Origin: Loripinus fragilis
Taxonomy: Eukaryota > Mollusca > Bivalvia > Lucinida > Lucinidae
NCBI GenBank assembly: GCA_964019695.1
Contig: CAXHUL010000511.1
Coordinates: 1-64,000, forward strand
Reading direction: 5' to 3'
Length of the DNA: 64,000 bases
Numbering within the stretch: the stretch's first letter is position 1; every line of letters begins with the position of its first letter. A program made the translations under genes and the position numbers. A model generated the notes under the pieces. It had not been told where the DNA came from and did no database searches. It saw only the letters and a program-made list of their open reading frames with translations. Positions 3,262 through 15,956 of the stretch are shown here, in pieces.

Positions 3262-3358
3262 TGAGATCAGAATGAGATCGATGCTACCTGCCAGATTTGC
3301 CATCAAGCCGAAGAGACCCTTGAACACTTCATCTTGGACTGTACAGTACTGGAACCAG
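3262..3358 (+). pseudogene. Non-LTR retrotransposon ORF2 C-terminus, left part
   Basis: Read in frame from 3262 this encodes a Cys/His motif (C-x2-C, H, then a distal H and C; 'TCQICHQAEETLEHFILDC') typical of the zinc-binding region after the reverse transcriptase of LINE-type elements. A stop lies just upstream in this frame, so only the tail is left. The frame breaks at the ccag target site (3355-3358) and resumes across the LTR element at 15672. The LINE copy was therefore in place before the LTR element inserted. Confidence 0.7.
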
Positions 3359-3571
3359 TGATGGAAGTCTACTTACCTATATCTTTAGGCTGTAGAGCGC
3401 ACCAAAGAACGTCTGTATTGTCTGAAGGTCAGGTAGCAAGAGGCTGCAATTCCCGCAATTAGATGTCACGTGGTCTCGTAGGCGTTGCGTAGGCGTTACT
3501 CCGCCCTTCCGGGATGAGATCACCCAAACTCCCCAGCACTATGATCAGGAAGCCTGTTGACGGGTCCAACA
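3359..3571 (-). repeat. 3' LTR
   Basis: It is a 213-bp direct repeat of 15459-15671, with no difference found in a base-by-base reading. On the minus strand it starts TGTTGGACCCG and ends CTTCCATCA. No AATAAA is visible inside, so the polyadenylation signal is unclear. Confidence 0.97.
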
Positions 3572-3583
3572 CTCTCCCCCTTC
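3572..3583 (-). promoter_or_regulatory. Polypurine tract
   Basis: On the minus strand the bases directly before the 3' LTR are AAGGGGGAGAG. This is the usual position and composition of the primer for plus-strand DNA synthesis. Confidence 0.85.
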
Positions 3584-4987
3584 CATAAAAAGAGCTAATA
3601 TGCAGATAACAATTTGAAATGAATAATATATGTAGTGAAAGATAGGGACTATAAATATAAATGCTGTTCAGTTCTTAAATTTAAAGTTATATACTTGAAC
3701 GTATTGACATAAAGGAATGGATGACTTACTGTATTGAGAAACTTAGTTTATAATTATTAGTACCAAAATATTGTATGACCTTGACCTCACATTACCAAGA
3801 CAGACAATGCAACAGACAGTGCAACAGGGACCAAACATACCGGACAGATAATATATACAAAAATTGAATGCTCTGAAGAATCAATCGGATTCTTTAACTT
3901 ATTTTTGCTTATAGATATTACAATATATATTTACGATCTGCTTAGCAGATAAGCTATACTTTAGCTACATCAAGTGCAATGGCTCTTAATATTAAAACAG
4001 ATTATTAGTGTTAAGATATTATATGTTAATGCTATATAGGAATTACTTCACCACTAAACTCAACCAACTCAGAATAAAAGATTATATGCATACAAATATA
4101 AACATAGCCACCACATGTAGTCCACCACCTGAACATGGGCAATACAAAAATGGTATATTATATGGAAGCATATACAGTGTTTCACTAGGTTACGGTCCTA
4201 TATACATAAGGTATATATTCATATATATGCTAAGATTTTAAATGTATGAAACAAGTTGACTGTGTTAATAAGACACATTGATAGCATAAAGTTGTGACCC
4301 AGCAAAGCACTGATATGGAATAGTAAGACCTGGAGACTCAAGATCCTTAATGTGAGAACAAAGTTATACTAAAAAACTAAGGAACTAAGGAGTGACTACT
4401 GTAAAATGGAAAAGAAGAGGATTAAAGGAATTTTAGTATAGGAACCACTACAATGCACATACTTTACAGATAGGATCATAGTTATCAGTCCCATGCAATA
4501 TGTTACCAAATAACTTGACCAGAATTACTCATTACAAATATTAAGTTGTAGTACATGCATATTATAGTAATTCCTAAAGAAATAGCAAATAAGTAGCTAC
4601 CACACCACAAGCAACCACAAAGTTGTGATAATGTGTGCACTTACGGTAAAGGTATTTCTGGCCTGTAAAAGAAGAGATTAAAAGTATTATAATGCCTTCA
4701 ATGTTTACTGTCGTGAGTTGGCTCCCTGTACCGTTAGTTTAACAGGTGACAGGGCCCAGGGCGACGACGGTAAACATTGAGCTTAGTATACCATGCGAAT
4801 TATATGTATAAATATTGATATAAATACAAAATAAACAGATTCAACCCAGGAGTGACAACTACAAAGAGCTAATCACCCAAAGACTAACTGTATTAATTCA
4901 AAATCTAAAAGTATTCCCTCAAATTATAATAAGCCCACGGAGCAAGAATGGCCGTAACGATGCATGACATGGCTTATATTGTGGGGT
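3584..4987 (-). other. Non-coding 3' tail of the LTR element, with a hairpin
   Basis: There is no ORF of note. A hairpin spans about 4700-4779, with AATGTTTACTGTCG paired to CGACGGTAAACATT and an inner CCCTGT/ACAGGG. Relics of the 25-bp motif found between pol and the TatD gene lie at about 3588-3604 (AAAGAGCTAATATG) and 4855-4874 (ACTACAAAGAGCTAATC). The rest is AT-rich. Confidence 0.6.
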
Positions 4988-6385
4988 TTACCAGGGCAAG
5001 TTATACAACCTGGCTACATTTTTATTGCATGCCCCCACCAGCACAGTTTTAGTAATATCCAAGATCTGCGCTGCCCCCTCAGCAACCTCATTGACATTCC
5101 AAGGTTTGTCAGCTAAATAAGGGGAATCTGTCTCTAATAGTAGTCGCTTGCGATTGTCAAAAGCCTTAATAGCGGAGACCGTCTCAGGATGCTTCAACGA
5201 AGCAGGCGAAATGCTAAAATAGCAATTTGGAAGCATGGAAGACCATCGTCTGTATTCCACCTCCCTTCCAATGAAACAATGGCGATGAATTGGATGGTTC
5301 TGCATTTCCAATTCCAGGAGTAAAGAAAGTACCTCCTGTGCCGCCACTCCAGAGCCCTTAACCTTGTCCCGGACATGTATGACCAAGACCTTACCCGTGG
5401 ACTTAGCCAGATTGAAACTCAGTCGCAGAAATCGGCGCTGTCCCCGGATACTCTGTGCGCGACAGATCGTCTTATCATGGTATTTATGCTTGCACACAGT
5501 AGTAAAGTCCAGGCCGACCTCGCCAATGCCCACGGCTGATGGATACTGATCCACAAGTTTTTTCAAACTGCAAATATCAACCTGAGGGTCGGTAATCATA
5601 TGAGGGTGGATGCCAAGAGTTATCCTTAGCCCAGGATCCGCAATCACATGATCACCAAGATATTTCCAACTACCTTGAAAGACATAATTTGCAATGGCAA
5701 AGGGAATAGTGATGGGAAAAGAGCTTGAGTCCTCCAGATCCGACAGTGTCTGGTTAGGACGACGGGAGAGCTTATCCAAATGAAAATGAGCATCAATGAT
5801 ACCCCTTTTCATAATTGGATAGCCAGCGGTCGGATTGGAAAATCCGGAGGTCAGGTACCTGGCGAAAGTCTGCAATTGAGATACCGCCCCTGGGCTTATA
5901 TGGGTAATTAGTTTAGCCATAAAACCCGGATGACTAAGGGCGATAACCCTGGTAGGTGGAATGGCCAAATAACCACCGAGTACCAGTGGTTCCAATCCGG
6001 CTCTCCTATCGTATTCACTGAGAAAGAAATATTCCTCCTCAGAGAAGCTGAGAGGACCAGGAAGGAGCTCCCTAACCAGGGCAGAACCCAGCATCTCAAT
6101 GGGGGAACCCAGACCCAACTCCTGGCTCATAAACAGGAAAAACCCATTCATAAGCAGGAACCAGGCCTGCAAAAAGTATTCCCCAGCTATCCACTGGTGT
6201 CTACCATGCAGGACACTGCGCTCCTTCACAGTCCCCGCAGACATGTGGCAGCTGACACATGCAGTGGCTGGGCTCAGATACCAAGGTAAATGAGCCCGAA
6301 GGACATGTCGATATACATGTGTGGTGACAGCTTCACAGGTTTGACAAGAATCATTAAACCGTGCCTTCTTTGATCTGGGTGGCAT
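4988..6385 (-). CDS. TatD-family metal-dependent nuclease with N-terminal zinc-finger-like region (third ORF of the LTR element)
   Basis: This is an intact 465-aa ORF ending in TAA. Residues about 195-465 form a TatD/amidohydrolase-fold domain with every metal ligand expected: H200-x-H202 in IDAHFHLD, E289 in GIGEVGLD, H337 in VIHVRD, H369 in HRHCFIG and D420 in ETDSPYL. By family knowledge TatD proteins are Mg-dependent DNA exonucleases/endonucleases, so an active nuclease is predicted. Residues 1-194 are not TatD: they contain C14-x2-C17...H27/H32 and a second C43-x2-C46, possibly binding zinc, then a hydrophobic stretch near 71-86. There is no signal peptide. I chose the MPPRS start because its ATG lies one base after a strong splice acceptor; the frame is open 15 codons further upstream. 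The gene sits after integrase, where env lies in retroviruses, on the same strand. An intact frame beside a broken pol suggests selection until recently. Its role in the element's life cycle is unknown. Confidence 0.88.
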   Translation of the reverse strand: MPPRSKKARFNDSCQTCEAVTTHVYRHVLRAHLPWYLSPATACVSCHMSAGTVKERSVLHGRHQWIAGEYFLQAWFLLMNGFFLFMSQELGLGSPIEMLGSALVRELLPGPLSFSEEEYFFLSEYDRRAGLEPLVLGGYLAIPPTRVIALSHPGFMAKLITHISPGAVSQLQTFARYLTSGFSNPTAGYPIMKRGIIDAHFHLDKLSRRPNQTLSDLEDSSSFPITIPFAIANYVFQGSWKYLGDHVIADPGLRITLGIHPHMITDPQVDICSLKKLVDQYPSAVGIGEVGLDFTTVCKHKYHDKTICRAQSIRGQRRFLRLSFNLAKSTGKVLVIHVRDKVKGSGVAAQEVLSLLLELEMQNHPIHRHCFIGREVEYRRWSSMLPNCYFSISPASLKHPETVSAIKAFDNRKRLLLETDSPYLADKPWNVNEVAEGAAQILDITKTVLVGACNKNVARLYNLPW

Positions 6386-6410
6386 CCTACAAAAAATGAA
6401 AAAGGTTATC
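6386..6410 (-). promoter_or_regulatory. Predicted splice acceptor before the TatD ORF
   Basis: On the minus strand TAACCTTTTTCATTTTTTG is followed by TAG, then G, then the ATG. This is a branch-point-like TAAC, a pyrimidine tract and an AG placed so that the exon would begin G-ATG. It pairs logically with the donor in the 5' LTR at 15471-15478. No transcript evidence is available here. Confidence 0.6.
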
Positions 6411-6678
6411 CAAATAGTTGCCTCCCCCAAAGCAATAATGCCTACAACTCATGTATACCCACAATGTCAGTCTATGTACACCAATAAAATGCCTAAGCAT
6501 ATGTATACATCCTAATGCACTGCCAGCATCAGTCGAGTTTTCTCCAATTATGTAATAAAAACTACAATAAATGGAAAAGATGCAAGGTGTGCTAGGGTGC
6601 AGAGCATGACCCCATATACACTAATAGGTCACATCACCAGAAAACCTCCCAATGAATATTCTACACCCAGTCAAGCCT

Positions 6679-7893
6679 CTACAACCGCAAAGGGCTAAAA
6701 GAAAACCTGACAATTGGTATGGCTAAACAGAAGGATGAACGCATGACCCAAAGTGTACAGACAGGCCATATGCAAAATTGCAAGTAATTTTTTATTTATA
6801 AACAGCACATATCTAGTTCCATCAACTACTAGGCTGCATGGAACCAGAAATCTGCTGCAAGAATATATTAAAAATCATCAACACAAAACTGTACTGATGA
6901 GTCGCAATATTTCCAATCCACGACTCCTCAGCAATGGCACTTCAGATTCTGTCACAATAACTTAAATCCTGCCATTCAGATATTTGGCAGAAGAGATTAG
7001 AAACAAATTCAGCTACATGAGGACCCCAATGCCAGGATCATGCCAGCCATACAACTACAAAAGGGCTAATATGGACAAGCACCACAACTGACATCAAGCA
7101 TCCACACTGGAAGAGTGTCTGAATATAGCATTCAATTGTATGTCACAGTGTGATTATATTACTGATTGCGATTCTCAGACTAAATTTTGAAAGAATTACA
7201 TGTCCCATCTTGGAATAGTCATTTAGGCTATTATGTACCATCACAAAACTAGACATGTTAGCAGTGTTATGCCATCACCCAAATAAATGGTCATACAATC
7301 TCAAAGGACTAATATAGACTACTCGGGGTAACGTCATAACGGTGTAATTGACGTCAGACCGACAAGGATTGACTTGTAAGTAGTAAATTCCCTCAGTCAA
7401 TATTGAGGTCACGACGCCATCTCAAAGGTCTTACAATCTCAAAGGACTAATAAAACCATTCAAGACAACCGCCACAACCAAACTACTGACATGTATATTA
7501 CACTGACAAGTCCAGACACGGCAGATAGTTTCGCCTGTACATCATATGAACCCATACTAGAAAATCTAAGCACGGTTGCTTGCGTCACTTATAAATCCGA
7601 CGTCAAAATATTTGCCTCAGCGTCGCAATCTACAATGGGCATACAACCTCAAAGGGCTAATATACGTCACTGCCAAATACGCCGCTGAAATGATACTTTA
7701 ACAGTAGCCATACAACCGAGAGGCCAATATGACACTGTCAAGTTGCAATTTTATCTGGTATTAGGCCCAATAAGGATCATACAACCTCAAAGGGCTAATA
7801 TGACTTCCCAACAGGCCAAACATCAGATTTAAGTGCCTGAGATTTCGGACAACCAAATTGATAGGAACATACAACCACAAAGGGCTAATATGA
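6679..7893 (-). promoter_or_regulatory. Array of eight 25-bp motifs between pol and the TatD gene
   Basis: On the plus strand the consensus is CATACAACCTCAAAGGGCTA followed by ATATG. Copies start at about 6679, 7048, 7292, 7432, 7640, 7709, 7778 and 7868, all in the same orientation. The last four are spaced 69, 69 and 90 bp, and 7432-7640 and 7292-7432 are 208 and 140 bp, close to multiples of 69-70. The sequence between motifs is not shared. This looks like a set of binding sites for a repeat-spaced DNA- or RNA-binding factor. No ORF covers the 1.5-kb stretch from 6386 to 7917. Confidence 0.75.
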
Positions 7894-7917
7894 AACCCAC
7901 CAAGCCAGATGTCCAAA

Positions 7918-10338
7918 TCAGTCTCTGAAACGTGCGGGTAGCTGAATTTTCCTTCCGGTTCGGGTGGTTTGAGTGATCCCTAATGGCTGAGTCACTATAA
8001 CGCCATCAGAGAGCGAATTGGAGCCGCCAATGGGATTTGATTGTTGGCTCTCAATGTCACCTGCAGAGTCACTATCAGGTACAGAAATAGACTCATCCCC
8101 AAACATATACGGCAAAGTCAAGTCAGGATCATCTCCCAGCATGTATGGTAGGGTCTGATCAGGATCAAACAGTTCATCACCCTGGGAGTCATCCTGAACA
8201 AGCTCATCAGGCTCCATGTCATGATCCTCCTCCTCAACTATGGGAACAGAGGTCTGAGTATCGAGAATCTCGTGTCTCTTTCTCCGCAACCATAGAGGAA
8301 AATAAGCGTCATGACATGGTTTCAACCGATCATGGTGGACTGAATGTACCCTAAGCCTCCCTTCGATAGTATAGACTGGGGGACGGGCCCCTACAATAAG
8401 GAATGGACCTGTCCATGGAGGTCTCAATTTGCGGCTCACGCCAATTTCATTTGAGGAATCCACTAAATAGACTACATCTCCAAGTTTGTATGACCTTTCA
8501 AATAACCTAAGGTCATAGTCTCTCTTCTGGCGCAGTTGAGCTTCGCCAATCCTCTCTCTGGCCAGTTTATGAATATCTGAGAGATTACTTAACAGATTTG
8601 CGACCCATGTTGGTGGGTCCCGAGGAGTTGACCTAGTTAGGCCGAGGATTAAATCGATCGGCTGACAGACCTCTCTCCCCAGCATCATCATGTTTGCTGA
8701 AAAACCAGTGGATTTATTTTTCATAGAGTGAAGGGCCATTGATATAAGGGGTAGATGCTCGTCCCAGTCCTTTTTACCTCGGGAGACATATGACCTAATC
8801 ATCTGCAGAATGACTCTGTTGAAAACTTCAACCTGACCATTGCCCGAAGCGTGATAAGGGGTAGTCCTGGTTTTGGTGATTTCCAGAACCTTACAGAAAG
8901 CTTGGAATAAGTCACTTTCAAAGTTTCTACCTTGGTCAGTGTGCACTTCAAACGGACAGCCGAAAGTCACTATAAAATGCCTTAAAAATGCCCTCGCTGT
9001 TAATTCTGCATTTTGGGCTGGCAAAGCTGCAAGCTCAACCCATTTGGTAAACTGATCAACCATAACCAGTATGTATGCTGAGCCTGACTTACTTCTTGGA
9101 TTTATCGGACCCACGATATCCAAGTGTACTCTTTCCATTGGACATCCTGAGTGATAAAGTCCTAGAGCACCCCTAGGTTTCCTATTTCCCTTTTTGTTTT
9201 TGTTGCAGGTTGAACACTGCTTCACATATATGTCACTATCCCTGGACATACCGTACCAATAAAACCTCTGCTTAAGTTTATCTAATGTTTTATCTTGGCC
9301 TAAATGTCCAGAACCTTTTGAATCATGACAGTAGTACAAGACTCTAGGTCTGAGTTCTGCAGGGACGACTAAACAGTCAGAGCGATAATCACAGTTTGAC
9401 CAGGAATAGTACAAAATGCCTTGTTGCAATTTCAGTTGGTCCCTTGTTAGCCAAAGGGATCTTGTTTCAGGGCCAGTGAGTTGCAACTCTCGTGTGGTTG
9501 GCTCGTAAGAGTGCTCTAGCCAATTCATGACTAAACCAATGTTTGGGTCCTGAGTTTGAGCTTCCCTGAGCTCCAAACGTGAGAGACCCTCCATCCAATT
9601 GGAAATCGTCTGGGCACTGGACGAATCAGTATCCTGAGCCTCAACTTCAATGCTACGGACAGCCAAAGGTACAATATCATCAACATCATCGTTGAACCGA
9701 GCCCACTGCCTATGTGCCCGCCGACAATAATTGCAACCTCCACAGGGAAGGTCACTAACATTCTGACCAGCTGTATAACAGTCACATTCAACAAAAGGAT
9801 CTTTGAGACGACTTAGAGCATCTGCATTGATGTGTTCCGCGCCTTTTCTATGGATGATTTTGAAATCATATTGTGACAGCTCCTCAAGGAAGCGTGCCAA
9901 CTGACCCTCCAAGTGTTTAAAACGGGTAAGCCAAACTAATGAGTTATGATCAGTCCTGATGTAGAAGAAACGTCCTAGCAAAAAGTGTCTGAACTGACGA
10001 CAGAATTTCATTATTGCCAAAAGTTCTTTCCGAGTTGTACAGTAGTTCCTATGTTGCTTAAGTAAGACATGGCTGGCAAAGCAGATGGGCTTAATTTCAC
10101 TATTTTGAACCTGAGAAAGGGCTGCACCAATCTGAGTTCCACTAGCATCTGTGTCAAGAATGAACAATCCATCTGGAGATGGGTGTGAAAGCATGGGGGC
10201 TGAAATGGCTAATTGTTTCAAAGTTTCAAAACAAGCCTGGTGTCTACTGGTCCAAATAAACAAGTCTGCATGAACTAGTGCATATAGGTCAGCTGAGACC
10301 TTAGCAAAGTCCTTAATATGATTCCTGTGATAGTTCAT
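7918..10338 (-). CDS. pol: Pol C-terminal part: RT tail, RNase H and integrase
   Basis: This is 806 codons open from just after the RT frameshift. In order: the end of the RT connection (near residues 1-60); RNase H with DTDASG and a later RTDHNS; a Cys-rich insert (CDCYTAG...CGGCNYC); the integrase HHCC zinc domain (H in YYCHDSKG, GHLG, C-x2-C in CSTCNK); the D,D-35-E core (D in HLDIVG, D in HTDQG, E in GQVEVFNR); and a GPF/Y-like module (WTGPFLIVG). An acidic C-terminal tail repeats DxTLPYMxGD twice. By family it removes RNA from hybrids and joins the cDNA to the chromosome. The domains look complete, but in this copy the frame is cut off from RT by a one-base loss at about 10336-10343, so it would not be translated as part of Gag-Pol. 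Confidence 0.9.
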   Translation of the reverse strand: MNYHRNHIKDFAKVSADLYALVHADLFIWTSRHQACFETLKQLAISAPMLSHPSPDGLFILDTDASGTQIGAALSQVQNSEIKPICFASHVLLKQHRNYCTTRKELLAIMKFCRQFRHFLLGRFFYIRTDHNSLVWLTRFKHLEGQLARFLEELSQYDFKIIHRKGAEHINADALSRLKDPFVECDCYTAGQNVSDLPCGGCNYCRRAHRQWARFNDDVDDIVPLAVRSIEVEAQDTDSSSAQTISNWMEGLSRLELREAQTQDPNIGLVMNWLEHSYEPTTRELQLTGPETRSLWLTRDQLKLQQGILYYSWSNCDYRSDCLVVPAELRPRVLYYCHDSKGSGHLGQDKTLDKLKQRFYWYGMSRDSDIYVKQCSTCNKNKKGNRKPRGALGLYHSGCPMERVHLDIVGPINPRSKSGSAYILVMVDQFTKWVELAALPAQNAELTARAFLRHFIVTFGCPFEVHTDQGRNFESDLFQAFCKVLEITKTRTTPYHASGNGQVEVFNRVILQMIRSYVSRGKKDWDEHLPLISMALHSMKNKSTGFSANMMMLGREVCQPIDLILGLTRSTPRDPPTWVANLLSNLSDIHKLARERIGEAQLRQKRDYDLRLFERSYKLGDVVYLVDSSNEIGVSRKLRPPWTGPFLIVGARPPVYTIEGRLRVHSVHHDRLKPCHDAYFPLWLRRKRHEILDTQTSVPIVEEEDHDMEPDELVQDDSQGDELFDPDQTLPYMLGDDPDLTLPYMFGDESISVPDSDSAGDIESQQSNPIGGSNSLSDGVIVTQPLGITQTTRTGRKIQLPARFRD

Positions 10339-10989
10339 GAACCCAGAAAAGAAAGCAATTCTTTAGCATTGGATGGAGTAGGCCATTGTTCGACGGCCTG
10401 CAATTTATCTGGAGAAATGGATACGCCACTTCCGCTTACCAATTTCCCGAGAAATTCAACTTCCTCCTTAAAGAAGCTACACTTCCTGGGCTTAAGTTTC
10501 AAATTATGCTCACGGAAGCGAACAAAAACCTTTCTCAAAGAAGACAGAGTATTGTCAAAATCAGTCCCGAGAACAATGACATCGTCTAGATATACAATGA
10601 CCTCCTCCCACTGTAAACCACGCAATACCATCTGCATGGCCCTTTGAAAGGTAGCTGGGGCCGTACAAAGACCCATAGGGAGACGAGACCACTGAAAGCT
10701 GCCAAACCTAGTGCTGAAAGATGTCTTATGCTTAGAGTTACTATTCAGAGGTATTTGAAAGTAGCCGGCACATAAGTCGAGAACACAGAACATTTTCTGA
10801 CCGTACAGAGAATCCAGACAATCCTCAATCAAAGGAAGACTATAATTGTCTTTGTAGGTCTTCGCATTCAGAGCTCTATAATCTATACAGTACCTGAGCT
10901 CACCGGTTTTCTTCCTTACCAGCACAGGAGCAGCTGACCATTCTGATACTGAAGGCTCGATAACACCCTGCTTCAAGAGCTGCTCAATG
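10335..10989 (-). pseudogene. pol: Pol reverse transcriptase segment, frameshifted and MITE-interrupted
   Basis: The Ty3/Gypsy RT core is complete: the KQGVIEPS start, SAAPVLVRKKTGELR, IDYRALN, LCAGYFQIPL, FQWSRLPMGLCTAP and the catalytic YLDD in VIVYLDDVIV, ending at ELLSFLG. Upstream, the reading frame is separated from protease by the MITE at 10990-11156. Downstream it meets a stop at once, because one base is missing in a short T-run; the RNase H frame continues one base over. Both lesions are simple and the residues around them are well conserved, so the damage is recent (or, for the single base, possibly a sequencing error). Confidence 0.9.
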
Positions 10990-11156
10990 CAGGGGTTTCA
11001 TTAACTTTTTTGGCAACCAGGCATCAAGGCAAAGTAGGCGGGTGATTTGACAGTATTTGCCTATAAACTCTATACACATTTATCAAAAGTAGCAGGGGAA
11101 ACATGCCTGACTAGAAGGGGAAAATCCCCGCCTCCCTCTTCTTAATGAAACCCCTG
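10990..11156. mobile_element. 167-bp MITE inserted in pol
   Basis: It has perfect 15-bp inverted ends, CAGGGGTTTCATTAA and its complement, and is flanked by a 6-bp duplication TCAATG (10984-10989 and 11157-11162). Protein similarity is continuous when the insert and one TCAATG are ignored, so the boundaries are certain. CAGGG ends suggest a hAT-like element, but hAT normally duplicates 8 bp, so the superfamily is open. The added 173 nt is not a multiple of three and also brings in a stop. Confidence 0.9.
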
Positions 11157-12205
11157 TCAATGTATTCTTGCTCTTGTTTTTGAAATTGGAGTGGAGTCCG
11201 CCTAAATTTTTCAGCTATTGGAATTTCATCGTGAGTTTTGATAGAATGTTCCACTCCAGATAAACAACCCAAATCAAAGTCATCTTTTGAAAAAATGTCA
11301 GAAAATTCTAAAATTAAATTTTGAAATTTGGATTTTTGAGTTTCTGTTAAGCCTGAAGTATTTTCTGACAACATTTGCTGTAAATGTGCAGGAATGCTAC
11401 AACCCTCAGCACCATTCTGCTCACCGGGCCCCCGAGCATGTGAGGATACTTTAGAAATGCGGGCTTGCTCAGGAACCGGCACTTGGACAGCAGGTTCTGC
11501 ATGTCCAATGACCTTGCCCTTTTTCAAGGTCACAAAGAACTCTGAATCATTAACTATTTTCAAGGTGACAAACTTACCATTACCGTACACCCGAGACGAC
11601 AGTGTGTGCTTTGTTGGACAACCCTCAACAATGAAGGTGTCCTCGAAAGGCTTATCTAACTCAGCTTTGACAAAAGAGACAGAGCCAGGTTGGAGCACTG
11701 TACGCCGGACTACGGTGACTTTGGAAAATGTATGATCTGCAGCTTCAGAGACATTAACAGGGATAATATCTGGTCCTATTGTCAATTTGTTGTTCCCCAA
11801 ATCAAGAACACTGGCTGTTGCCCGTAAAAAGTCAAGACCAAGAAGGCAAGCATCCTTTACAGGAGCAAAGCAAACCGTATGCAGGAATGTTTGAGTCCCA
11901 ACAGTGATTGGCACATTGTAAACTATCCGGCCATGAACCGGATCAGCACCAATCCCTGTTAAAACGCAAACTGGGCCTATCTGGTCTGGATCAGTTATAG
12001 GTTGGAGATAATCATCCCTTATCAATGTAACCATAGCCGCAGTATCTAAAATGGCATCTGTTGGTATACCATTTATCAAAGTGCTAATAGTGGCATTCAA
12101 ATTGCGGTGACTCGGCAAGGACACTTCAAGTATATCACAATGGCGGCCCAAATCAGGGCGGACTAGGCATGGGTCGCGGGAACACCCAGTCCGTCCAAGT
12201 TTAAA
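11111..12205 (-). pseudogene. pol: Pol N-terminal part: retropepsin-like protease, truncated by the MITE
   Basis: The frame is open from the TTTAAAC slippery site at the end of gag, in -1 relative to gag, and runs to a stop inside the MITE at 11111. The active-site loop reads AILDTAAMVTLI: the usual D-[ST]-G-A is D-T-A-A here, a Gly to Ala change. The second conserved block CLLGLDFL matches the family's hydrophobic-LLG motif. After protease comes a spacer leading to HSIKTHDEIPIAEKF, the usual entry to RT, and then the MITE. Protease would cut the Gag and Gag-Pol precursors. There is no in-frame ATG near the start, which fits expression by frameshifting. Confidence 0.85.
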
Positions 12206-14688
12206 TCTTGAGCGACTGGCTGATCCGTTGACAAAGACCTAACTGCTACAGGACTTTGGGGCCTGTTCGGTGCAGATTGTGTGAAGGAAGGGCCTTGAAA
12301 AGTGGGCCTAGGTGAAGGGTATGAAGAGTCATGATTGCTGGGCCTAGGTGCAGTTTGTTGAGCTGGTGGTCCAGGAGACTGTCCATAAGGCCGTTTCCCA
12401 TCTTGGTATTGGGAATCGGAGTAATACCCCCGATTATTTGAAGGGTATGCTGGGGGTCCAGGCATAGGGGGTCGATAGTAGGCAACCTGATTACCAGGTC
12501 CCCTATCATCGCCACCCCTGCCAGGACTCCTATTTGGTGAATAGCCTCTCCTGTACCCACCAGGCTGTCCGGATGGAGACCGGTATTGCGGCCTATATCG
12601 CTCATAAGACTGGCGATATGGTGAGCCATCTCTGTAGCCAGCAGGAGACCGTTGTCTGGGCCAATTATTATAACCCTGTGGTCCCGCTGGATACCGGGAA
12701 GGCGACCTAGAAGGTGATCTGTATGAAGGAATGGCCCTATGGAAAGTTTCCACAAGGTCATCGACTTTCTTTTCAATGGAAGCCACGCGAGTTTCCTCCT
12801 GGAACATGAAAGCACGTTCCTGGAAGGACACCTTGGTGGCCCCCACCGCCTTCTTATTCGCAATGACGGTCTTCACCCGTCTGCAAGCTTCCTGGATTGA
12901 TTTCGGGGCTTCATTCATTACCAGCGTGGCTGCATCTTTAAATTTGCAGCCACGAAGGAAAGCCTCCGTAGCCAGCTGCTGCAGGGTGGCGATCTGTGCA
13001 TCACCGTAACCATCAATGGTTACGGTGAGAACACGCTGGAGGAAGTCCTCCAGAGATTCCTCCTCACTTTGTTTAATTACATGTAATCGCTGTCTGGCAG
13101 CAACTGGCTCGTCCCTCAGATCAAACCGGAGGGCGAGCTCATTCTTCAACGAAGAATAGTCTCGCCCCTCGGCCCTATTTGCGTACTCAAGCGCCTTGTC
13201 AGTCAGGCAGTCAAAGAGCCTGTCCAGTTTCTTATTGTCGGACCAGCCTCTCCGTAAAGCTACCCTGTCAAACTTCGTTATAAAGCCTCGCCAGGATAGT
13301 TTGGTGGGGTCACCTGAAAAGAATTGCAGTTTTTGAGGAGCCGGCGATCGACTCCTTGACCGACTCCCATAACTGGACTGCCTATCTGACTGTCTACTCC
13401 GCGATCTCCCTCTCTGATCTGTACTGAAAGTATAACTATTGTCTTGTTGTTGCTGTGTTTGCTGATTTTGTTGTTGTTGTGTTTGTTGCTGTTGTAATTG
13501 CTGTTGTGGTGTTTGTTGATATGTTTGTTGATGTGTCTGTTGTCGTGATGTTTGTTGTTGTTGTGATGTTTGTTGTTGTTGTGTTTGTTGCTGTTGTGGT
13601 TTTTGCGGATATGGTTGTTGTTGTGATATTTGTTGTTGTTGTGCTTGTAGATATGTTTGTTGTTGTTGTTGTTGTGGTGTCTGTTGCTGTAGTGCTGGTG
13701 GTTGGTATATATGTTGCGTTTGTTTTTGACCATATTGTTGATATGGTTGTTGTGTTTGTTGTTTTGGTGGATATATACCAGAATCTGGTATCACAGCAGA
13801 GATTGCTTCTATTTGTGTTTCTTGTGAGGTCTTTGGTTTGACCTCTATAGGTGATGGAGGTTCATGCCATGTTAATGTCTTTGGCTTGACGTCTAATACT
13901 GAAGGTGTGTGCAAAATTGTTGGAAGTTGTTGAGCAACAGAAGTTTGCCAAACTGCCTGATGCTGTTGAACAGAGGGTAACATGACCTCTGCCGAAAATG
14001 GCTGAGCCGTGTGTAGTGGTTGTGAAATTGATGGTGTTGTGATCATATGTGATGAAGTATGTGTTAGTGACTCTGATGTGATGTTCTTTTGGTGGCTGAT
14101 AGGTAGTGGTGTTGTTATTGGTGGTATGGAAACTGGCTTCAATATTTTCGACACGTCTTCCACAAATTTGTCGTGATCAAAGAGGTGCTTTTGCATATCT
14201 TTGTTTTGTGTCTCAATCTTATGCATGCTATTTGCAAGTGTGTCCGTGTCTTGCTGCATGCCTGTAACTGTGTTGTGTAATTGACCCATTCGGTCTGATA
14301 AGGTTTGACCCAGATACATCATTTGGGCCGATAGCGATTCCATGTTCGCTGTCAGCATGTTCAAAGAATGTTCTAATGTCTGTGTTGTGTCTTTTCCCAA
14401 AGGTGACTGTGATGTGAATTTTTCTGCGTTTGTTTTTGCATTTGGAGAAATGTCTGTGAAGTGGCCAGTGGCATGGAAATCTAAAGATAGATCACCTTGA
14501 TCTATAGAAGACTGCCACTGGTCTTCCGTCAGACGGATCTCGGCAAGATCCGCCACTGTAATTTCTGGTCTCTGACCCGCAATTACTGCATCACGCAGTG
14601 CCACAATCTTCGCTGAAGATGCCGCACCAATCTGATGGAACATCTCCAACTCTTTCTGTGTACATGTGTATACATTTAAAGATGACAT
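12163..14688 (-). CDS. gag: Gag
   Basis: This 841-aa ORF starts at MSSLNVYTC. The frame is open 34 codons further, but that part reads like leader sequence, and this ATG has an A at -3. The first 300 residues are helical and coiled-coil-like. A glutamine-rich tract follows (roughly residues 300-440, encoded by CAA/CAG), then an RS stretch (RGRSRSRQSDR) and the capsid-like domain (FFSGDPTKLSWRGFITKF, then a block with LALRFDLRDEP and EESLEDFLQRV). The C-terminus is rich in R, S, P, G and Y and has no CCHC zinc knuckle; RS/RGG-type sequence may do the RNA binding. The antisense of the Q-tract gives V-rich artefact ORFs. Gag should form the particle that packages the element RNA. Confidence 0.88.
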   Translation of the reverse strand: MSSLNVYTCTQKELEMFHQIGAASSAKIVALRDAVIAGQRPEITVADLAEIRLTEDQWQSSIDQGDLSLDFHATGHFTDISPNAKTNAEKFTSQSPLGKDTTQTLEHSLNMLTANMESLSAQMMYLGQTLSDRMGQLHNTVTGMQQDTDTLANSMHKIETQNKDMQKHLFDHDKFVEDVSKILKPVSIPPITTPLPISHQKNITSESLTHTSSHMITTPSISQPLHTAQPFSAEVMLPSVQQHQAVWQTSVAQQLPTILHTPSVLDVKPKTLTWHEPPSPIEVKPKTSQETQIEAISAVIPDSGIYPPKQQTQQPYQQYGQKQTQHIYQPPALQQQTPQQQQQQTYLQAQQQQISQQQPYPQKPQQQQTQQQQTSQQQQTSRQQTHQQTYQQTPQQQLQQQQTQQQQNQQTQQQQDNSYTFSTDQRGRSRSRQSDRQSSYGSRSRSRSPAPQKLQFFSGDPTKLSWRGFITKFDRVALRRGWSDNKKLDRLFDCLTDKALEYANRAEGRDYSSLKNELALRFDLRDEPVAARQRLHVIKQSEEESLEDFLQRVLTVTIDGYGDAQIATLQQLATEAFLRGCKFKDAATLVMNEAPKSIQEACRRVKTVIANKKAVGATKVSFQERAFMFQEETRVASIEKKVDDLVETFHRAIPSYRSPSRSPSRYPAGPQGYNNWPRQRSPAGYRDGSPYRQSYERYRPQYRSPSGQPGGYRRGYSPNRSPGRGGDDRGPGNQVAYYRPPMPGPPAYPSNNRGYYSDSQYQDGKRPYGQSPGPPAQQTAPRPSNHDSSYPSPRPTFQGPSFTQSAPNRPQSPVAVRSLSTDQPVAQDLNLDGLGVPATHA
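12199..12205 (-). promoter_or_regulatory. -1 ribosomal frameshift slippery site (TTTAAAC)
   Basis: On the minus strand gag reads GAT TTA AAC TTG, which places T-TTA-AAC in the correct phase 11 codons before the gag stop. Slipping by -1 opens the protease frame, which is free of stops from here. TTTAAAC is a canonical X-XXY-YYZ heptamer. A G/C-rich stretch follows, but I did not fold it. Confidence 0.8.
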
Positions 14689-14795
14689 GATGATGAATCG
14701 ATGAGATTTTGGACCAAATGAAATGAACAAACTACAAAGCAAGAATTTTAAAACAATAAAAAAAAAAATGTTGCAAATAAATATTTGCAAATAAC

Positions 14796-14970
14796 CTCGG
14801 CAAATAGATATCTCGGCTATTCAACGAGAAACAAGCTCGGCAAATAGATATCTCGGCTATTCGACGAGAAACAAGCTCGGCAAATGTATATCTCGGCTGT
14901 ATTTGACGAGAAAGAAATTTCACAAATAACTCGGCAAAAGTGACGAGCAAACTCGGCGATATGACGAGCT
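14796..14970 (-). repeat. 40-bp tandem repeats in the gag leader
   Basis: Two near-identical 40-bp units start at CTCGG (14796 and 14836), then a third unit (14876) and degenerate partial units follow to about 14970. Each contains CTCGGCAAATAGATATCTCG and a CGACGAG end. They lie about 110-280 nt upstream of the gag ATG, in the RNA leader, where packaging or translation signals would be expected. Confidence 0.8.
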
Positions 14971-15438
14971 AAAAAAAACTGTATATATATGACAAATACG
15001 GTAAAGACACCTTAAAACTGATGGGTAAGCCACAAACTGTTATTTATGACATATACGGTCCACTATACGCATAAAATAACTATAAATGCTTACTTGTTTT
15101 TGTTTATTTCTCAAACCGGAAACATGCCAAATGTTTTGACTGGTTTTAGAAAAAGTTCCGGTTCGATGAAACCGAAATGTCCAGAAATGGTCCGAAATGA
15201 CCCGAAATTGAAAATACGATTTTTTCTAAATAATTTATTCAGAAAACACGCGTGATAGATGTGAATTTATTGTAAATAATATTAGAGTGACCGAGATTTA
15301 ATTACTGCTGGAGAATTTAGAATTTCACGAAATTACAAAGTCTTTTTGCTAAAAATTTAAGGTCCCTGAAAAGCGAAAATGAAAGTAAAAGTTCTAAGAA
15401 ATGAAAATGCTCTTACATTATTTTGCTCCCGCTCCTAT

Positions 15439-15456
15439 TCTTCATCCACGTCGCCA
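15439..15456 (-). promoter_or_regulatory. Primer binding site, probably tRNA-Ser
   Basis: Two bases after the 5' LTR the minus strand reads TGGCGACGTGGATGAAG. From memory the 3' end of animal tRNA-Ser(GCU) gives a complement TGGCGACGAGGATG, which matches at 13 of 14 positions. The spacing and the TGG start are as expected for a PBS. Confidence 0.75.
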
Positions 15457-15458
15457 TT

Positions 15459-15671
15459 TGATGGAAGTCTACTTACCTATATCTTTAGGCTGTAGAGCGC
15501 ACCAAAGAACGTCTGTATTGTCTGAAGGTCAGGTAGCAAGAGGCTGCAATTCCCGCAATTAGATGTCACGTGGTCTCGTAGGCGTTGCGTAGGCGTTACT
15601 CCGCCCTTCCGGGATGAGATCACCCAAACTCCCCAGCACTATGATCAGGAAGCCTGTTGACGGGTCCAACA
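15459..15671 (-). repeat. 5' LTR (with promoter by position)
   Basis: It is identical by eye to 3359-3571. Transcription of the element should start here and run toward lower coordinates. I see no clear TATA box. The last part carries a consensus splice donor (15471-15478). The ccag duplication follows at 15672-15675. Confidence 0.95.
15471..15478 (-). promoter_or_regulatory. Predicted splice donor in the 5' LTR
   Basis: On the minus strand the LTR reads ATAG then GTAAGTAG, an ideal AG|GTAAGT donor, 13 nt before the LTR end. Splicing from it to the acceptor at 6387 would remove gag and pol and put the TatD ATG first in the RNA. An alternative acceptor, CTTTTCAG at about 15365, could instead remove a short leader intron. 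Confidence 0.6.
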
Positions 15672-15956
15672 CCAGTAAGACGACCTGCGCTGGATGCTAT
15701 ACTCCGTATTGCCTATGAGCTGTTGGACCGCCCGCTGGAGCGTGAACAGTTACTTCAACTGATATTGGACAGTAGCTTCTTCTTCAGTAGTTCTGATGCC
15801 ACCGTCTGTCAAACCTCATATAGAGACCTTGATATGCAAACCAGACGTCTCTGTTACAGTCTCCACACCGAACGATACAGTAGGCTCTCCCTTATTCCCA
15901 AAAGAAATAGAAAGAAATGCAACCGGGTAGATGTACCGAGGCACACACCAGCATGA
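15672..15956 (+). pseudogene. Non-LTR retrotransposon ORF2 C-terminus, right part
   Basis: The frame continues that of 3262-3358 after removal of the LTR element and one ccag. It runs about 95 codons (RRPALDAILRIAYELLDR ... VDVPRHTPA) to a TGA. This is the last part of a LINE-type protein. The sequence beyond 15956 may be its 3' UTR, but I see no tail. Confidence 0.65.

Follow-up and report, generated by a model that had tools for sequence, protein, structure and literature searches.

A conserved TatD-type nuclease gene in the env position of a Ty3-type LTR retrotransposon lineage of the bivalve Loripinus fragilis

Introduction

Most long terminal repeat (LTR) retrotransposons are thought to need gag and pol only. 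The stretch of DNA analysed here, hereafter the window (64,000 nucleotides of Loripinus fragilis contig CAXHUL010000511.1), contains an LTR retrotransposon at 3359-15671 on the minus strand that carries, in addition, an intact open reading frame (ORF) for a TatD-type nuclease. An initial annotation had placed this ORF between the LTRs, on the element's coding strand and in the position of env, and this reading is upheld: the gene has 465 codons, lies downstream of integrase and is enclosed by identical 213-bp LTRs. The question is what such a gene does there. We find that TatD is a regular part of this element lineage in this genome, standing beside integrase, and in the following we relate its conservation, selection and predicted expression to its possible role.

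Results and discussion

Recurrence of TatD beside integrase

In order to assess how regularly TatD accompanies the element, we searched the window's genome (1.99 Gb) and scored the best 89 of 343 candidates for TatD, the best 56 of 5097 for integrase, the best 40 of 41 for the LTR of the window's element (family A) and the best 40 of 153 for the LTR of family G. Only best matches are counted in what follows. There were at least 96 TatD matches, or 84 loci once merged. Ten copies have 98-100% identity and one has 87%, and others cluster at about 55-59%, 50% and 42-48%; fragments and remoter matches also occur. The integrase search gave 54 merged loci. TatD lies downstream on the same strand, at 1.0-4.3 kb (median 1.5 kb), at 47 of the 50 scored integrase loci with at least 60% identity, the chance expectation being about 0.0001 per locus, and the three loci without it are partial matches. 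None of the four scored integrase loci below 60% identity has a TatD downstream among the matches listed, a search that could miss distant TatDs beside these four distant pol loci. Of 20 TatD loci read directly, 17 have integrase upstream. Two of the others (L106, L108) lack it in the stretch read and the third (L107) is an element without most of pol.

The window's LTR has 42 matches in the genome. All 12 LTR pairs at 80% identity or more enclose a TatD, 11 of them in the same orientation; in two of the 12 (C1, C10) one LTR is matched over just 46-55 nt. The ORF is thus kept in other copies that have the same LTR and, with TatD at 47 of the 50 related pol loci that were scored, a one-off capture of a host gene is rejected. 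Two LTR pairs at 72-80% identity contain neither pol nor TatD by tblastn. L112 and L113, related LTR pairs with no pol or TatD detected, are probably non-autonomous elements. In the C1 pair (G000:C1:11885519-11896475) the LTR matches and the interior have opposite orientations, and at G000:C10:61426580-61450777 two family-A elements stand tail to tail with 3' LTRs overlapping by 10 bp, either a palindromic insertion or an assembly artefact. Many listed TatD matches show stops. A listed stop is not always inside the gene, because families C and G have a TAG in the aligned stretch ahead of the start codon; L099 and L100 have no stop inside.

The TatD protein

The ORF runs from its ATG with no stop inside. 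The Pfam model TatD_DNase (PF01026) matches the 465-aa protein with E 3.5e-35 over profile positions 1-253 of 253, and all 47 aligned rows match it as well. Residues H200, H202, E289, H337, H369 and D420, which we take to be the TatD metal ligands, are all present, as first annotated, and each is retained in 46 or 47 of the 47 aligned relatives. The predicted model (mean predicted local distance difference test score, pLDDT, of 91) consists of a compact TatD barrel and a helical Cys/His module. It has the triosephosphate isomerase (TIM) barrel fold of the TatD family, and its best PDB matches are TatD enzymes, Staphylococcus TatD and human TATDN3 foremost. The N-terminal region contains two Cys/His sets, C14/C17/H27/H32 and C43/C46/H60/H63. 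The latter four residues are invariant in the 34 closest rows, and in the 47-row set H60 is found in 40 and H63 in 36. The Cys/His region of about 194 residues described in the initial annotation is therefore present and conserved and may, as suggested there, target the protein to nucleic acid.

The position of the gene and its predicted splicing (see below) would also suit an env-like role, in which the TatD protein serves particle assembly or cell-to-cell spread and nuclease activity is secondary. The model, a barrel with a Cys/His module, speaks against this reading, as does the Pfam search of the ORF, which gave TatD and one sub-threshold match and no env model. We consider it very improbable.

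Purifying selection and divergence with integrase

The TatD gene is under purifying selection. In TatD, 30 of the 62 changes among the ten copies with 98-100% identity are nonsynonymous, compared to 71-76% expected, and the ratio of nonsynonymous to synonymous rates (omega) is 0.30-0.38 (p 3e-6 to 1e-4). This is the dN/dS test over copies that had been called for. For integrase in the same copies, 15 of 48 changes are nonsynonymous and omega is 0.14-0.17; one stop variant was left out of each of the two tests. In ten family-G copies, 45 of 104 TatD changes are nonsynonymous (omega 0.27). Single pairs inside families range from 0.12 to 0.59, and a stop-bearing copy is part of every pair above 0.3. 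Synonymous divergence (dS) approaches saturation between families, where omega is 0.17-0.30 for five pairs and could not be computed for two. Three of the 20 loci (L103, L106, L108) were left out of the pairwise set, and a stop is present in 4 of the 18 copies used.

These stops speak for TatD as a passenger, a host gene captured a single time and of no use to the element that carries it. We strongly disfavour this explanation, as it is opposed by purifying selection in both families A and G, by the 47 of 50 scored pol loci with TatD, and by full-length relatives that reach down to about 30% identity.

TatD follows integrase in divergence. In four subsets, each with 8 to 11 elements, the distances of the two proteins correlate (r 0.84-0.93; p 5e-5 to 9e-4 by permutation). 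Some partners in these subsets are linked by equal sequence size only, the family-B row is left out for an integrase piece without overlap, and D_L103 is a family-C copy, so that family C counts up to three times.

Short elements without pol

The family-G LTR gave 16 pairs, and TatD is enclosed in every one. Eight are long (11.4-12.2 kb), each with a matching pol locus. The other eight are short (4.4-6.5 kb) and have no pol match among the integrase matches listed, and all eight hold TatD. One of the short elements, L107 (1727-8096), has identical LTRs, an intact 467-aa TatD, a 287-aa ORF and a mere trace of the integrase tail. Five short copies, picked for having no listed stop, have a TatD without indels or stops. 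A further eight family-G LTR matches have no listed partner, three of these having no TatD match nearby. The retention of TatD in 8/8 short elements is suggestive only, and random internal deletion could well spare TatD.

The main rival to a role in copying bears on these elements. TatD might serve counter-defence, destroying silencing small RNAs or other nucleic acids or blunting the sensing of complementary DNA (cDNA), and would then be an accessory gene outside the copying machinery. The higher omega of TatD compared to integrase, its faster divergence relative to the integrase core, the predicted expression from a spliced mRNA and the short elements that keep TatD are all in line with this. 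On the other hand, omega is well under 1 with no sign of positive selection, and short and long elements intermingle in the tree, so that retention may derive from long sources. On balance we judge counter-defence unlikely, if still worth more attention than the other rivals.

Predicted expression by splicing

Splice signals in the DNA strongly suggest that TatD is translated from a subgenomic mRNA produced by splicing, the mode of expression of env and accessory genes in retroviruses. The predicted donor and acceptor of the window's element are given in Table 1. On the element strand the donor sequence AGGTRAGT occurs only in the LTRs, once per LTR. Of 20 copies, drawn from about four families, 18 have a polypyrimidine-YAG 0-17 nt ahead of the TatD start, and the acceptor regions are otherwise unlike between families: TTTTTTGTAG-G-ATG, TTCTTTTGTAG-ATG, TTTCTTTGCAG-ATG and TTTTTATTGTAG-17 nt-ATG. 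GTAAG near the 3' end is likewise present in the LTRs of L107 and L109, which represent two other families, making three unlike LTRs in all, and the splice signals recur in families with TatDs 45-58% identical to the window's. Because a donor near the LTR end and an acceptor before the start recur across divergent families, we infer an env-like mode of expression. There is no ATG upstream of the donor in the window's LTR, and TatD would therefore begin at the first AUG of the spliced mRNA.

Iterated motifs lie between pol and TatD. In family A, TATTAGYCCTTTGAGRTTGTATG has 6 matches in each of 10 copies, and likewise in the copy at 87% identity. Family E (L104, 4008-5025) has 10 copies of TATTAGTCTATGTATTGTA, one of them changed, spaced 74-92 nt apart; TTAGYCY occurs 10 times versus a shuffle mean of 0.29. 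One family-C copy (L099, 3494-5040) has 5 copies of TTTCTTGCCAT in the same interval. The TTAG motif array is absent from families C and G. These family-specific motifs could possibly be a splicing-control, export or protein-binding array.

The arrays that precede the predicted acceptor in families A and E, together with the report of TATDN2 as an RNA nuclease in PMC12709183 and PMC10707325, would be compatible with a role in RNA processing, in which the nuclease trims or degrades element transcripts and thereby tunes the balance of genomic and spliced RNA or limits copy number. Yet a self-limiting gene should lose by competition, an argument made in PMC5408684, and the missing TTAG array in families C and G speaks against it too. 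We see only a slim chance for this explanation.

Architecture of the element

On the minus strand the order is LTR, gag-like ORF, protease, reverse transcriptase, RNase H-integrase, 1.5 kb of non-coding sequence, TatD, 1.4 kb and LTR (Table 1). The paired TG...CA LTRs with a 4-bp target-site duplication, and gag followed by protease, reverse transcriptase, RNase H and integrase, are those of a Ty3/gypsy-type element, where gag is assigned by position only and the protease match is below the Pfam cut-off. The Pfam search gave no gag model for the gag-like ORF. The insertion is recent, as both LTRs are identical and CTGG flanks them on either side. Protease, reverse transcriptase and RNase H-integrase are in different frames in this copy, and intact pol frames (1382 aa in a single ORF) are found at other loci of the same genome. 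A candidate primer-binding stretch, TGGCGACGTGGATGAAG, starts two bases past the 5' LTR, with no tRNA assigned to it. The Rfam search gave no match. Two repeats touch the gag-like ORF, one at 13417-13773 encoding a long Gln-rich stretch inside it and the other at 14789-14908, where the ORF begins, with three tandem 40-nt units.

Table 1 Features of the LTR retrotransposon in the window. Positions are those of the window.
Feature	Position	Strand	Remarks
5' LTR	15459..15671	-	213 bp, TG...CA; identical to 3' LTR
3' LTR	3359..3571	-	213 bp, TG...CA; identical to 5' LTR
Target-site duplication CTGG, 4 bp	15672..15675 (5' side), 3355-3358 (3' side)	-	
Predicted splice donor TAG^GTAAGT in 5' LTR	15477..15477 (last exon base)	-	18 nt ahead of LTR end
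Gag-like ORF (stop to stop), Gln-rich	12163..14820	-	gag by position
Aspartic protease ORF	11111..12238	-	Pfam gag-asp_proteas E 9e-5, under curated cut-off
Reverse transcriptase ORF, YLDD motif	10335..10997	-	RVT_1 E 3e-30
RNase H and integrase ORF (H2C2, rve)	7918..10362	-	
Motif array between pol and TatD: 6 close copies of TATTAGYCCTTTGAGRTTGTA, a seventh with an extra base	6680..7888	-	
Predicted splice acceptor TTTTTCATTTTTTGTAG^GATG	6387..6387 (last intron base)	-	intron would be 9,090 nt
TatD ORF, 465 aa	4988..6385	-	residues 1-194 Cys/His module and helices; 195-465 TatD barrel
Polypurine tract GGAAGGGGGAGAG directly ahead of 3' LTR	3572..3584	-	by eye

Relatives in other genomes

The public-protein search gave 134 matches. 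Besides the near-identical P0001, nine have 56-65% identity over 98-100% of the query, and several clusters have tens of members, as expected of repeats. The order seen in the window recurs in two annotated proteins, both gene models: one of Mytilus coruscus with H2C2 and then TatD in one chain, and one of Acanthaster planci with H2C2, rve, PHD and TatD. Six exact size coincidences were found between the sequences bearing 120 TatD matches and those bearing 119 pol matches, where shifted sizes give a mean of 0.36; two of the six are weak, the one at 6018 bp being doubtful as it links records from different sources, and the one at 8.87 Mb showing only the same large contig. The profile search returned 980 matches, ordinary bacterial TatDs included (120 listed). 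A genome-contig scan with a generic TatD motif kept 80 loci, which are bacterial TatDs at 24-33% identity, and the scan of viral contigs gave no match. Nine phage records were found; five are listed, and their matches, at 26-28%, fall outside the N-terminal module. Five proteins named as bacterial (P0016, P0017, P0045, P0060 and P0062, from Thiodiazotropha and Sedimenticola metagenome-assembled genomes) are probably host retroelement contamination.

In the TatD-domain tree (57 rows, quick method), the element rows, most of which are labelled by likeness and not by pol alongside, are separate from bacteria and from vertebrate TATDN2. A recent bacterial transfer is rejected, the bacterial rows making a branch of their own. 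Nor are the element proteins TATDN2 orthologues in this tree, as the vertebrate rows form, with Limulus and Plakobranchus, a 9-row branch (support 96) outside the element rows. Proteins of echinoderms and molluscs, 615-892 aa in size, make up a neighbouring branch to which the Acanthaster protein belongs; they have 'NSPA-L-HWR' and a comparable Cys/His stretch. We also observed six proteins of 755-888 aa with a C-terminal TatD (P0279, P0284, P0285, P0293, P0294, P0298), the named ones from echinoderms and molluscs. Five of the six share a similar finger-plus-TatD module and P0284 adds a zf-CCHC knuckle; they are possibly a second class of TatD-bearing element.

The pol tree has 108 rows including the window, all of them search matches without named Ty3 reference elements and with most short-match rows dropped. 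The window falls in a branch of 39 rows together with five of the six pols linked to TatD; the other one, P0235, falls in the second branch, of 69 rows. The TatD label is not clustered on this tree (7 changes versus 6.9 in shuffles). With the TatD status given for the linked rows only, the tree does not tell one gain of TatD from several.

Comparison to known systems

Enzymatic third ORFs (ORF3) are already known from other elements. In bdelloid rotifers, according to PMC5408684, ORF3 of LTR retrotransposons is a DEDDy exonuclease or a GDSL esterase. As in the present element, an additional ORF for an enzyme occupies the env position, and one bdelloid type is related to 3'-5' exonucleases; the difference is the fold, DEDDy in rotifers versus TatD here, and no homology is shown between the two. 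No DEDDy exonuclease domain was found in the window's ORF, for which both Pfam and the predicted fold give TatD. PMC5408684 reports no significant departure from neutrality, whereas we see purifying selection. Orchid Ty3/gypsy elements carry an ORF for an AlkB demethylase of N6-methyladenosine, with activity shown in vitro, as stated in PMC9289625; this is likewise an extra nucleic-acid-acting enzyme in a Ty3/gypsy element, although the enzyme and the host kingdom are other ones. Troyka elements were rejected as a match, having 3-bp duplications and CG...CG ends, features that differ from those of the window's element.

TATDN2 is described, in PMC12709183 and PMC10707325, as a Mg-dependent, structure-specific RNA 3' exonuclease and endonuclease acting on R-loops, expressed in germ cells and needed in the germ cells of medaka. 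Like the element protein it has a C-terminal TatD_DNase domain and extra N-terminal sequence (P0287); unlike it, TATDN2 is a host gene on a separate branch. The vertebrate TATDN2 rows showed no finger motif by a regular expression, which failed to find it in many element rows as well. Bacterial TatD/YcfH and human TATDN1 and TATDN3 are barrel nucleases of the same family, but the TatD entries in the PDB comparison have 15-24% identity and 243-363 residues, and these proteins are not in a transposon. Among titles, term counts and abstract beginnings, the level at which papers that mention TatD were also screened, in lists that in part stop at 20 entries (20 of 1,280 and 20 of 5,756), and with subscription papers and Repbase outside the search, we found no description of a TatD in a retrotransposon.

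Proposed role of the element nuclease

We favour, with a probability of roughly 0.55, a Ty3-type lineage whose env-position Cys/His-TatD nuclease is expressed from a spliced mRNA and acts on the element's own intermediates. The N-terminal module would bind nucleic acid, and the TatD barrel would act as an RNA or single-stranded DNA 3' exonuclease and endonuclease in the manner of TATDN2. Its substrates would be RNA in RNA:DNA hybrids, flaps and R-loops formed by the element, and this action would help cDNA maturation or integration. By analogy, the element protein is probably a TATDN2-like nuclease on the element's nucleic-acid intermediates. The initial annotation is partly supported by our results, namely in the TatD-type ORF in the env position, its presence in other copies with the same LTR and its purifying selection; of the two conditions named there that would refute it, neither was borne out. 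The activities thought of there, trimming cDNA ends, degrading competing DNA or acting on host DNA at integration, would be candidates. For the animal paralogue TATDN2, however, the reported activity is that of an RNA nuclease on R-loops, so that RNA or RNA:DNA substrates appear at least as likely as DNA.

Several points weigh against the role that we favour. The spliced transcript, the protein and its activity are predictions from the DNA. No Pfam family matches residues 1-194, and no PDB match is particular to this N-terminal module, the listed ones being TatD and other barrel or hydrolase enzymes; modelled alone, this part reached a pLDDT of only 42 and the model failed. Some within-family pairs have omega of 0.43-0.59, each including a stop-bearing copy. 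Compared to the integrase core, TatD diverges roughly 2-4.5 times faster, a pace not required of an enzyme that serves replication alone. Of the short family-G elements, five of the 8 (those without a listed stop) were taken alongside five of the 8 long ones; in the five short ones 27 of 67 changes are nonsynonymous, which does not demonstrate selection inside them, as short and long copies intermix in the tree. Finally, the substrate of vertebrate TATDN2 need not be that of the element TatDs, which branch apart from it in the tree.

A bolder version of the favoured role can be put forward tentatively, and we hold it to be possible but less probable than the role itself. It states that a zinc-finger-like TatD, serving as an env or accessory gene and expressed by splicing, has been retained in a nuclease-armed Ty3 lineage from a time before present mollusc families diverged, and perhaps before molluscs and echinoderms did, and that the protein would prefer the RNA that encodes it, which would explain TatD in derivatives without pol.

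Conclusions

While enzymatic ORF3s such as the DEDDy exonuclease and AlkB are known, we did not find a TatD version described. That a nuclease gene is conserved and selected here suggests that standard elements manage some step of their life cycle, or of their conflict with the host, by other means. Some mollusc and echinoderm genes annotated as TatD or TATDN2, of which few examples were seen here, would be transposon genes. The finding also gives a direct target for study, a single enzyme with a measurable substrate.
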